NCBI RefSeq assembly: GCF_964340395.1
Contig: NC_135549.1
Location: 12,372,342 to 12,436,341, forward strand
Direction: 5' to 3'
From: Glandiceps talaboti
Taxonomy: Eukaryota; Hemichordata; Enteropneusta; Spengelidae
Length of the DNA: 64,000 bases
Under the pieces are notes generated by a model, which searched no databases, was not told the origin of the DNA, and saw nothing but the letters and a program-made list of their open reading frames with translations. Below are positions 7,001 through 62,842 of this stretch, piece by piece. Position numbers and translations under genes: made by a program. Position 1 is the first letter of the stretch; every line of letters starts with the position of its first letter.

Positions 7001-10000
7001 ATTTACCAACTGATAAGACACACTTCCTACTTCCTGTGAAAACACTTTTGTTTTCACCCTCCAGGCTTGTAATTTTTGTAGCTACCATTCTATAATTGTA
7101 ACACTTTCAGTGGGGTAACATCAAACTTCCTATAGACATTGCTGGTTTTAGTGAAATCAGTTAGTTTAGTTTTGAGTTACATTGAAATTGTCAACAGATG
7201 TCATCAGTCATTGGTGTTATTCTACGTATAAAGTGTACAGTTGTAATTTTACTCAGAAATTACTGCCAATGCATCCAGCTGTATTTCCTTTACTAATAGC
7301 AAAATAACACACCGACACGTCTAATTCTGTTTGGAAAATAACTTAACATAGCTTTGGGTTTGTAATATATTTGTTGGTTTGAGGGTGATATATTTATTGT
7401 ATATAACTGAACACATTGATCCAACCCTAAAATAATAACAGTTTCTGTAAATCTATTAATAATGATAGCCAAAATTTCACATAATAACAGAGGAGCAAAA
7501 AAAATAAATAATCAAACTGTCTTAGAAAAGTCCATAGTCTTGACATTTCATGCAACAAAGTGAATACTGTATAAATTCGCTATCAGTAACATCTAATACA
7601 TCTAACATTCTCATGTGATTTACAAAACTTACATTGATACAATCAAATGACATATGAGGATTGTCCTTCATCTAATTTCAAATACAATGTATGTATATTT
7701 TTTCTATACACCAGACTTGCTCATCAACAGGTAATTTTCACAATAAATGAAATAATTTTCAATCGATTTTTGGTGCAAGTACTATATTCATTATATTTTG
7801 TGTGTTTATGTTAAGAATGCAAGCAAGTGAAATGAACTCAACACAGTCAAATTTGGATGAATAGTTTTCTCTCCTAAACTCACTTGCATTCGCTAAACTC
7901 GTTAACGTTCTTATGATGCAAACATGTATACATGACGTACATGTAGTAACCAATTATGACTTTTTATTTAAAACAAGTACAAAGGATTCAGGAAAATTAT
8001 TCAATTATGCAAGATGTAAAGTAGTCACATTGAAACAATTTTACAATCATCTCTTTGGAACAATAATGCAATTATCAATTTGGAAAAGATGTTGAAATCA
8101 TAAAATTGCAACCATTTTTCAAATTTAATTGTGAATGATATAGTTACAATCAGCAATTGGGAGCACTGTTCAACTTGCTGGGTAGTTATATTTCACTGTC
8201 TATACGGTATATCAAAAAGATCATGGACTTTACTGCATCAATATACATAACAGACAGTGTTAATTTTTTGTATTGTCTACTGTAATCATGCATACATGTA
8301 TATAAATTTTAATTTCTCAATTTTCATGAGCCAGTGAAAACTAAAATATGAAAACTATTTCAAGATAAACATGTACACAGTTATTTGGGTTGTAAAAGGT
8401 AGATGACAGAGAATACTTGCACAATGATGTCTTTGTCTGTTATTCCTGAACTGGGGGTTTATTTAAGACCTATTCAGTGGAAATTTTGTACCAATGATGG
8501 TGAACACAAAGATGACAAATAGCTTGCACAGTGTGCAAATAATGTGCTGAAGGCTATCAATAACACATTCTTACTATAGGAGATCAAGTTTCTACCAAGA
8601 GGTCTTTCTCTTTAACTATGTTTTCAATCATCCAGTCTGCATTCTTTACTTACCTTTTAGCTTGTTCTTTCAGAGCAGATTTGGGTGGATCAAAACATTT
8701 CTTGACTTGGTGTTTAGCAATAGCAGGCCATTTACCTTCATTCTCTGTCAGTAAATTATCATAGATTTCTGGTACCTAGGTATAGTGTTAAAGTAAATTC
8801 TTTGTAAGTAAATTATCTTAGATTTCTGGTACCTACATGTAAGTATTGTGTAAAAAAAACTGTAAGTGAATTCTTTGTAAGTAAATTACCTTAGATTTCT
8901 GGTACCTAAATATTGTGTTAGAGAATTCTTCGTAAGTAAATTATCTTGGATTTCTGGTACCTAAGTATTGTGTAAGTGAATTCTTCATAAGTAAATTATC
9001 TTAGATTTCTGGTACCTAAGTATTGTGTTAGAGAATTCTTCATAAGTAAATTATCTTAGATTTCTGGTACCTAAGTATTGTGTTAGAGAATTCTTCATAA
9101 GTAAATTTCTTAGATTTCTGGCATCTAAGTATTGTGTTAGAGAATTCTCCATAAATAAATTATCTTAGATTTCTGGCATTTAAGTATTGTGTTAGAGAAT
9201 TCTTCGTAAGTAAATTATTAAATATTGCTGGTATAATGTACACACACTTGTGATACTATACTTGACTATTAAACAAAATTGGAATTCGGTGATATTTGAT
9301 GGCATGTGTGAATTCAGTTGATATTGCTTACTGTACTTAGAGCCAATTCTGACTATTCATTGTATCTCACAATAAACACACAAATTCTTGAGGTTTGAAT
9401 TAATTTACTCCAACCACTAAAATCTAACAAATGCTTATTAGCCAACAAAAAATGGCGACACTGTATTCCTGGGTTTTTAGGTTCTGAAGAAGACACATAC
9501 TGAGGATTTAATGATGAATAAAGTCAACACTGTATATGTTGTATTTGTTATTATAGTTTCATGTATTTTTTTATGCTAGGTATCAAAGTGATTCTATTAT
9601 ATCCAGTGTCTCAGTTGTTAGCATTTTATAGCATAATCTATTTACAACAAAACTAGCTGCTTGCCATATTTGTATACTCTTAGCCTACCTGTTCTAGTAC
9701 TAAATTCTGTTTGGTAGAGGGTGGTTCCATCATTGATAAATGTTCCAGATATCTCTGCAACTCTGATAATGTTGGAATCTGGTCTAACAGAACTTCAGTC
9801 ATATGACCTCTCAGCTACAGGTAAATAATATTAAGAAAGAAAGAAAGATAGATGACAAAATATCATGAGAAAAATATCAAGTACAAAACACACATTAAAT
9901 GAAATAATTCATTGCAGCCTCTACAAGCAAATAACATCAAAGCATTCACAGTGCAACTTCTATTCTACCAGGACCAGGTCCCCAATTGTACAGCTGGGTT

Positions 10001-62200: not shown

Positions 62201-62842
62201 CTACGTGTATGTAGACACCAAACATGCAAAACACATCTAATACAATGATTTTGAAATAATTCATCCATAAAATATATTTTATGAGATGTACTACAGTACT
62301 TTGAGTGCATCTGTGAATTTTACAACTTGTAAATCTAACACTGTAGAATGAAAAATTGAAATATTCACTTGACAGAAAAGAATAACAAAAGTACTGTGAG
62401 GAAAGGGTGGGGTATGCTTATGCCAGTCTTGGGCATACCTGTGATACATACAACACTGGTTGGTACTGAACATGTTATGAGACGCCACTACTTGTTATCA
62501 CCAGAACACACATGCATAACTAGGGTCAAATGACTCACCCGTCTCTTTACTCATAACATAGATGTAGATTTCATCTTTATCAAACATCAACTCACCTGTC
62601 TCTTACTCGTAACATAGATGTAGATTTCATCTTTATCAAACATCAACTCACCCGTCTCTTACTCGTAACATAGATGTAGATTTCATCTTTATCAAACATC
62701 AACTCACCTGTCTCTTACTCATAACATAGATGTAGTTTTCCTCTTTATCAAACATCAATCCATTCTGTACAATTTCAGGATTATTACTAACAACTGCAAT
62801 GTCTTCATATTCCAAGGCCGATGTACTACTCACCACTTTCAA
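43254..62842 (-). CDS. PLXNA: Plexin A-type semaphorin receptor, 3' 29 exons (N-terminus outside window)
   Basis: Exons in transcript order: 62842-62708, 59238-59129, 58835-58709, 58536-58377, 58012-57807, 57385-57269, 57062-56958, 56660-56567, 56057-55870, 55563-55415, 54737-54617, 54030-53894, 53670-53494, 53041-52948, 52306-52055, 51552-51394, 50881-50644, 50244-50102, 49451-49261, 48788-48711, 48248-48035, 47769-47601, 47331-47228, 46942-46852, 46560-46370, 45742-45573, 44878-44666, 43847-43694, 43349-43254. All junctions are GT-AG and all phases close, giving 4383 nt (1460 residues plus TGA). Domain order is end of sema, PSI and IPT repeats, one membrane helix, then split RasGAP with a Rho-binding insert, as in every plexin. 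Cytoplasmic stretches such as [22 protein letters not shown]-like KNHPKLLLR and [20 protein letters not shown] are close to vertebrate plexin-A. Full plexin-A is about 1,880 residues, so roughly 420 N-terminal residues are missing here. Plexin is the cell-surface receptor for semaphorins in axon guidance and cell adhesion. Confidence 0.96.
45188..45523. mobile_element. Dispersed foldback repeat, copy 1 (plexin intron)
   Basis: Starts ACAAGTTCAACAAAAAATA and ends in an inverted pair: TTATTCTCCAACATTTTTC facing GAAGAAAAATATTGGGGGAT, with GACCTAAGGGTT between. It shares its whole order of phrases with copy 2. Confidence 0.75.
45940..46260. mobile_element. Dispersed foldback repeat, copy 2 (next plexin intron)
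   Basis: Same phrases as copy 1 in the same order and orientation. Its 3' end folds strongly: TTATTCTCCAATATTTTTCT and TTCATTCAGCC pair with the inverse at 46220-46258. The exon between the copies is not duplicated, so this is dispersal rather than a segmental duplication. Confidence 0.75.
49936..50016. repeat. (GTGTTT)n hexanucleotide repeat
   Basis: About 13 uninterrupted hexamer units in a plexin intron. Confidence 0.95.
50644..50881 (-). CDS. PLXNA: Plexin transmembrane and juxtamembrane exon
   Basis: This 238-nt exon encodes the end of the ectodomain, one membrane helix with glycine/alanine-rich start ([14 protein letters not shown]) and isoleucine-rich core, then a basic stop-transfer YKRKS. 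It continues into the juxtamembrane coiled-coil segment ([18 protein letters not shown]), which in plexins helps control dimerisation and GAP activity. It lies at about residues 778-856 of the visible protein, with the helix near 802-824. Confidence 0.94.
51394..59238 (-). CDS. PLXNA: Plexin extracellular PSI and IPT repeat exons
   Basis: Fifteen exons encode the stalk (about residues 46-777 of the visible part). PSI1 is in 59238-58709 ([17 protein letters not shown]). PSI2 is in 58012-57807 ([20 protein letters not shown]). PSI3 is in 56057-55870 ([16 protein letters not shown]). IPT/TIG domains are marked by the typical P-x-x-GPxxGGT signature: [18 protein letters not shown] (55563-55415), [18 protein letters not shown] (54030-53894), then the [15 protein letters not shown] block (53670-52948) and a final one in 52306-51394. 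The domains space the ligand-binding sema head from the membrane in the known ring-shaped ectodomain. Introns here are 0.2-0.9 kb. Confidence 0.93.
52711..52754. repeat. (CAGA)n microsatellite
   Basis: About 11 units in a plexin intron. Confidence 0.93.
52873..52980. repeat. 34-35-bp tandem copies of a plexin exon end with donor
   Basis: The last ~29 nt of the exon at 52948-53041 plus the donor GTAAGT occur three times: real donor near 52943-52947, copies near 52909 and 52874. All three keep GTAAG. Confidence 0.9.
53230..53412. repeat. ~20-bp tandem repeat
   Basis: About nine copies of ACATGTGAGATTGTACTATG with small changes, in the plexin intron next to the exon at 53494. Confidence 0.9.
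55744..55866 (-). pseudogene. Partial duplicate of the plexin PSI3 exon
   Basis: About 122 bp in the intron repeat the 3' two thirds of the PSI3 exon (55870-56057). The copy still reads openly ([20 protein letters not shown]) but changes the invariant CGWC to CGWY, loses one base near its end and has lost the CAG before its donor. It lacks an acceptor of its own. A dead exon fragment. Confidence 0.88.
56100..56362. repeat. ~43-bp tandem repeat
   Basis: Six copies of TGACAAGGAAGGCATTAAAT and TGTACTGTATCAAGTTATTC in a plexin intron. Confidence 0.9.
59239..62530. other. Large plexin intron, no exon recognised
   Basis: The exons on either side join in frame and contiguously within the family, so no coding exon is missing here. 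Short frames near 60470-60770 and 61700-61925 show no family likeness. Confidence 0.7.
62534..62760. repeat. 56-bp tandem copies of the plexin sema exon end with donor
   Basis: Four donor-like CTCACC (GGTGAG) sites at 62534, 62591, 62647 and 62703. Each is preceded in gene sense by ~48 nt matching the exon end ([15 protein letters not shown] in the copies). Confidence 0.93.
62708..62842 (-). CDS. PLXNA: Plexin exon: C-terminal end of sema domain
   Basis: First plexin exon in the window (45 codons, phase 0 at both ends). It reads [18 protein letters not shown] and continues to [16 protein letters not shown], matching the last sema blade, which in vertebrate plexins ends in a LYVMSERQ-like strand and leads into VTRVPVESC. 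The next exon begins [12 protein letters not shown], so the join is right. Four donor-like sites occur here. I take the most exon-proximal one, at 62707-62706, as genuine, because only it directly follows the unique exon sequence. Confidence 0.92.

Follow-up and report, generated by a model that had tools for sequence, protein, structure and literature searches.

Minisatellite-like tandem repeats that run over the 5' or 3' boundary between intron and exon are known in amphioxus as mirages, and those of the Adh3 gene were reportedly described by Canestro et al. in 2002. In such arrays many copies, not all, keep the AG or GT of the splice site, and the authentic exon copy stands at one end. Amphioxus mirages are known in the globin genes BflGb6 and BflGb9, after the earlier cases in Adh3 (PMC3087553), and lancelet PGBD5 and troponin C provide further examples (PMC3902484). 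Reverse-transcription PCR is reported, in the part of PMC3087553 that treats the point, to show no interference of the mirages with regular splicing, and the same source proposes them as raw material for new introns. Here, we describe arrays that share this anatomy in an acorn worm, Glandiceps talaboti. In a stretch of 64,000 nucleotides (contig NC_135549.1, positions 12,372,342 to 12,436,341; hereafter the window), five tandem arrays cross splice junctions of ZMYND10 and of a plexin gene, and similar arrays occur in other gene families of the same assembly.

A minisatellite with donor sites in its repeats is said to occur at a single locus, where the unit is short and the extra donors are used; the arrays studied here also include donor-bearing repeats, but they lie at many unrelated loci and are known from sequence only. 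Introns gained by tandem genomic duplication (PMC4974935) likewise involve duplications that carry splice signals, whereas in the present case existing introns are lengthened, and no gained intron was shown, none having been searched for. The literature searched, whose coverage was partial, contained no account of hemichordate mirages; minisatellite, hemichordate and intron came together only in PMC3902484, whose passage on mirages concerns lancelets. What is new appears to be the host group, together with an estimate of frequency, the structure itself being already known.

The two genes were modelled by hand on the minus strand, with a check of every splice site. ZMYND10 (4029-16571, minus strand) is complete, with 12 coding exons and an open frame for a product of 459 amino acids that carries a zf-MYND domain (Pfam, E=2.9e-11). 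The plexin gene (44666-62842, minus strand) has 27 exons in the window, its 5' part lying beyond it, and an open frame across all 27 with PSI, TIG and Plexin_cytopl domains (Pfam). Repeats were detected with Tandem Repeats Finder (TRF) and/or by self-BLAST, and the five junction-spanning arrays that an earlier note on this DNA had listed were all recovered where it had placed them. Each crosses one splice junction, in two cases an acceptor (ZMYND10 exons 2 and 10) and in three a plexin donor, with units of 736, 55, 34, 129 and 56 bp and differing identities. Extra splice sites in the arrays, called decoys below, were scored with models trained on the window's own introns.

At ZMYND10 exon 2 (14461-14569), a 736-bp unit is present twice at 99.9% identity (14503-15978, minus strand) and spans the acceptor at 14569; the decoy acceptor at 15305 scores equal to the real site. 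At exon 10 (8654-8775), a 55-bp array (8740-9233, minus strand; TRF/self-BLAST and alignment) spans the acceptor at 8775. The unit length given by the earlier note holds, and its count of eight copies becomes nine when the copies are aligned, including the exon copy and one decayed outermost copy. Upstream of it, within the intron, are the decoy acceptors, of which five copies retain AG|GTACCAGAAATC and all lead to a stop; the real acceptor and the array copies all fall under the splice-score cut-off. The three plexin arrays are also on the minus strand. A 34-bp unit repeated 3.2 times (52868-52978; TRF/self-BLAST) spans the donor at 52948 (exon 52948-53041), and its decoy donors at 52913 and 52878 score like the real site and lead to a stop if used. 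A 129-bp unit duplicated at 91% identity (55744-55994; self-BLAST only) spans the donor at 55870 (exon 55870-56057); in its intron-side donor, decay has put TTT in place of the CAG that precedes the GT. Finally, a 56-bp unit in four copies (62533-62758; 95% matches in TRF) crosses the donor at 62708 (exon 62708-62842), with decoy donors at 62651, 62595 and 62538, one of which equals the real site in score while two fall somewhat below it; decoy use here reads V-S-stop.

Because units and identities differ and no BLAST match at E 0.01 was found among the five arrays, they look like separate events, as the earlier note had held. In mirages the inner repeats resemble one another more than they do the boundary copy, as concerted evolution sparing the ends of the array would have it. 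On this point, alignment shows that the intron copies of the 56-bp array have changes in common that are absent from the exon copy, and that most copies of the 55-bp array read TAA at the place of the exon's TAT. Judged by eye from the alignments, the units of all three plexin donor arrays stop within the donor motif, about 3-6 bases past the junction, and the first bases of the following unit complete the working donor; this could stem from microhomology or from selection for rebuilt donors. A near miss is provided by a 43-bp array of about nine copies in ZMYND10 intron 7 (11259-11744, minus strand), which stops 4 bases short of the exon 7 donor and does not enter the exon.

The same structure was then sought elsewhere in the 590-Mb assembly (GCF_964340395.1). 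Exons of myosin, kinesin and dynein heavy chain genes were located by Pfam and stretches were taken around the matches, so that the whole sample consists of the two window genes and of 20 myosin, 18 kinesin and 5 dynein stretches. These cover 71 of 78 myosin, 52 of 142 kinesin and 30 of 89 dynein matches; some kinesin matches were left out, many being near-identical repeated copies, and the myosin set also took in exons backed by two or more paralogous stretches. Only edges with a recognised splice site were kept, 380 in all (187 acceptors and 193 donors), from 236 exons. As the splice models were trained on the window, where they recover 35 of the 38 acceptors and every one of the 38 donors, the refined edges outside it carry some error.

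Tandem arrays span 18 of the 380 edges (8 acceptors and 10 donors), and the sequences of all 18 were inspected. Thus, junction-spanning arrays are not confined to the window and are found in several gene families. Examples are a 48-bp acceptor array (stretch L008), a 141-bp donor pair (L010) and a 60-bp donor array (L020); others are a 123-bp donor pair (L030), a 102-bp acceptor array (L031) and an acceptor triplet (L044; unit ~180 bp), and two more were noted in L008 and L009. In the borderline case of L012 the donor could sit about 50 bases earlier, and the junction would still be duplicated; a 5-base overlap at an edge in L017 is absent from the 18. In L010 (3798-4084, minus strand), use of the intron-side donor of the myosin exon seems, by eye, to keep a 141-bp insert open in frame, in contrast to the decoys tested in the window, which run into stops. 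We also noted that many kinesin-motor exons recur at equal or near-equal scores, often at a spacing of ~1.8-2 kb, on several chromosomes (contigs C2, C5, C9, C11, C12, C15, C18, C22 and C23), a pattern that would suit the spread and tandem amplification of a kinesin-like gene or fragment.

Set beside the amphioxus cases, these arrays have the anatomical features of mirages. In the five window arrays and at the 18 edges, the unit runs across an authentic junction and takes in sequence from exon and intron alike; duplication affects exon boundaries of either kind, 5' and 3'; and many decoy dinucleotides, not all, are intact, with 14 of 16 AG and 8 of 8 GT (22 of 24 in total, counting only the arrays that pass the 32-mer test described below). 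Amphioxus units range from tens to about 160 bp, and those found here are similar in size, apart from the 736-bp unit, which is much longer. Mirages are also marked by unstable copy number between haplotypes, of which the present data cover one. The host is a hemichordate here and a cephalochordate there. Beyond the amphioxus accounts, we measured how frequent the arrays are among splice edges and what their local background is.

The earlier note had held that so many arrays overlapping small exons would be surprising if slippage struck at random. This is largely not borne out. In the window's gene bodies, 5 of 12 hand-listed arrays overlap an exon edge, against 5.22 expected from random placement (P(>=5)=0.67), and over all 380 edges 31.0 are expected against the 18 seen when arrays are placed as blocks, a null that ignores the multiplication of intron positions by the array itself. 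Another approach places founder units, each array entering once with the length of its unit. Its first version (smallest period with a 10-base margin; a unit-length version in the window) understated the expectation and was replaced by a founder null that uses the best-scoring period and by a copy-weighted test of duplicated 32-mers that needs no unit length; the nulls partly disagree. For the window, the refined founder null gives 3.62 expected against 5 seen (P=0.30), and the 32-mer test, which misses the decayed copy at 55744, finds 4 of 76 edges (5.3%) duplicated against 6.1% of intron positions. Taken alone, the window thus holds five arrays that are not clearly above chance.

Over the whole sample, the 32-mer test finds 13 of 380 edges (3.4%) duplicated against 2.5% of intron positions, a 1.36-fold ratio with P=0.17. 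Without the dynein set the figures are 12 of 335 edges and a ratio of 1.47 (bootstrap 0.83-2.43), and a higher identity threshold, an underpowered check, leaves the ratio at about 1.4-1.6 (P 0.09-0.21). Exon-interior 32-mers are duplicated at 0.48%, about five times below the intron value of 2.5% (9.1% of intron positions in raw terms). In this respect the earlier suggestion that extra junction copies are tolerated holds good, junctions being duplicated no less often than introns.

The profile of duplication around junctions, computed for the window, myosin and kinesin loci, has no clear junction peak and forms a slope, slightly uneven. We used the raw profile, since the copy-weighted one understates the bins near the edge. 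The raw duplicated fraction is 1.2% at 33-60 bases into the exon, 2.0% at 17-32 and 3.5% at 9-16, then 3.6% at the junction, and in the intron 3.0% at 9-16 bases, 4.7% at 17-32, 4.9% at 33-64 and 7.7% at 257-512. Neither profile has a clear peak, although in both the junction value slightly exceeds that of the 9-16 bin of the intron. Exon interiors thus have the least duplication and deep intron sequence the most, and junctions are duplicated about as often as other points in the intron, or perhaps as much as twofold more.

Together, these results lead us to read the arrays as mirages, that is, as ordinary tandem duplications whose breakpoints happen to lie on both sides of a splice junction, a reading to which we give a probability of roughly three in four. 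The introns carry a dense minisatellite background. By geometry, a tandem duplication that begins in an exon and ends in an intron, or the reverse, leaves one full exon with a working junction, and the extra copies, each a shortened piece of the exon with a spare splice site, pile up towards the intron. The spliceosome would then use the exon-proximal site, and the surplus copies, spliced out with the rest of the intron, would drift in a nearly neutral way; duplications inside exons would probably be purged. Random tandem duplication with purifying selection would therefore give the pattern of junction arrays alongside rare exon-internal ones. On this view, the crowding in the window can be put down mostly to a minisatellite-rich genome and to genes with many small exons, not to a junction-specific process. 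The earlier observation that the exon-proximal copy keeps the frame is borne out, since the exon-proximal junctions yield open-frame, domain-bearing ZMYND10 and plexin proteins. As a sign of a special process it fails: the copy is always good because a tandem duplication never destroys its own flanks.

Several results weigh against reading the arrays as ordinary duplications. The refined founder-unit null over all edges expects 9.7 spanned edges against the 18 seen, a 1.86-fold excess (P=0.011; bootstrap 95% 1.14-2.99) that is strongest in myosin (9 against 4.09, P=0.024). Cruder founder nulls had set 5 edges seen beside 2.04 expected for the window (P=0.027), 8 beside 2.77 for the myosin genes and 3 beside 1.25 for the kinesin genes. 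Moreover, use of the exon-proximal site is something that we infer. The founder-null excess may reflect arrays whose conserved exon half stays recognisable for longer, and, being modest, it is also compatible with a weak junction hot spot.

The earlier note also suggested that junctions are prone to duplication. They would then be mutational hot spots for tandem duplication, for instance through microhomology of GTRAGT and CAG or through transcription-linked breaks. The 1.86-fold excess speaks for such a bias, and so do the three plexin units that end within the donor motif. However, the profile lacks a clear peak and the 1.36-fold ratio of the copy-weighted test is not significant; other donor units (L010, L020 and L030) extend well beyond the junction, and the units that end in the motif may merely be the survivors that rebuild a working donor. 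We consider a hot spot unlikely. A broader claim, that acorn worms in general carry mirages on several percent of their exon edges and that junctions gain them at about twice the rate of the surrounding intron, seems to us doubtful at present, if slightly less so.

Selection for the extra copies, as decoys, as backup splice sites or for coupling to nonsense-mediated decay, is far less probable. Some decoys do score as high as the real site and 22 of the 24 dinucleotides are intact. All 12 of the window decoys tested lead to a stop when read as if used, the exon 2 decoy staying open over its first 30 residues and meeting its stop further on, which would suit decay-coupled control; however, stops are expected anyway in AT-rich intron sequence. 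In decoy AGs the mismatch is 0.062, near the 0.072 of random positions in control intron arrays; in decoy GTs 0 of 16 positions are changed, a sample too small to differ from the control value of 0.08. We had considered the high conservation of GT as a mark of selection and rejected it, as control arrays show that centring alone lowers the mismatch. Unit, length and side vary with no common design. The decoy sites thus look neutral, neither purged nor demonstrably conserved beyond control arrays, and we infer that they are not used. Neither this idea nor the hot spot, modest junction excess notwithstanding, is needed to explain the arrays as mirages.

The poorest candidate is an assembly artefact from merged haplotypes or read errors, for which one might cite the 99.9% identity of the 736-bp pair, an amphioxus mirage that was aberrantly assembled in a draft (PMC3087553) and the mitochondrial concatemer described below, but in the remaining window arrays, as in many elsewhere, the copies have diverged and carry private changes, both substitutions and indels; mis-assembly does not generate these.

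The mitochondrial DNA (mtDNA) of the assembly bears on the host group. In its contig, COX1 and ND2 contain no AAA among 872 codons, with a coding-strand G+T of 45.7% and 40.7% and an A+T of 46.3% and 47.3%, respectively. The gene order is ND2-Asn-Trp-Ala-Tyr-COX1; tRNA-Asn before tRNA-Trp is an arrangement of lancelets, and it would count against a hemichordate host. COX1 has only four ATA codons, at which two vertebrate sequences have Ile/Ile once, Ile/Met twice and Val/Val once, so that ATA read as Ile seems, weakly, to fit at least as well as Met. For Balanoglossus, the passages on mtDNA in PMC3121625 and PMC2697986 describe no AAA, and protein-coding genes with 50-52% A+T and 45% G+T; for lancelets, they describe AAA as Lys and a GT-rich main strand. 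Because AAA is missing and because of the base composition, the mtDNA would on balance be that of an acorn worm of the Balanoglossus kind and not of a cephalochordate. It was assembled as a concatemer, with COX1 every 15,435 bases in a contig of 51,222 bases (L047, G000:C40).

Other features of the window deserve mention. Next to the start codon of ZMYND10 (16571), on its upstream side, a 203-bp unit is duplicated at 98% identity (16648-17060); as the pair adjoins the start, the promoter region itself is presumably tandemly duplicated. In the plexin gene, a candidate exon at 48628 was dropped as spurious because the neighbouring exons join in frame without it. The plexin exon 45573-45742 is flanked by a pair of repeats (45189-45522 and 45941-46260) that are 79% identical and 752 bp apart, each with a stretch of ~150 bases bearing inverted arms of 34-36 bases, reminiscent of a miniature inverted-repeat transposable element. 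Between the two genes, an intronless open reading frame on the plus strand (27047-28141) encodes a rhodopsin-type G-protein-coupled receptor (7tm_1, E=3.9e-43).

The arrays extend a structure described from lancelet genes to an acorn worm, with a number and a null model attached. They also call for caution in gene prediction, as decoys that resemble real junctions in sequence and strength occur at several percent of the sampled edges. If use of the exon-proximal site holds, each array would line up several equal splice sites as a natural experiment, one that bears on splice-site choice and on the growth and origin of introns. Should the broader claim for acorn worms prove true, the 18 edges among the 380 sampled, all from conserved genes, would by extrapolation imply thousands of natural, near-identical competing splice sites per genome, and a second deuterostome phylum would offer a ready-made test of exon-proximal site choice and of intron gain.

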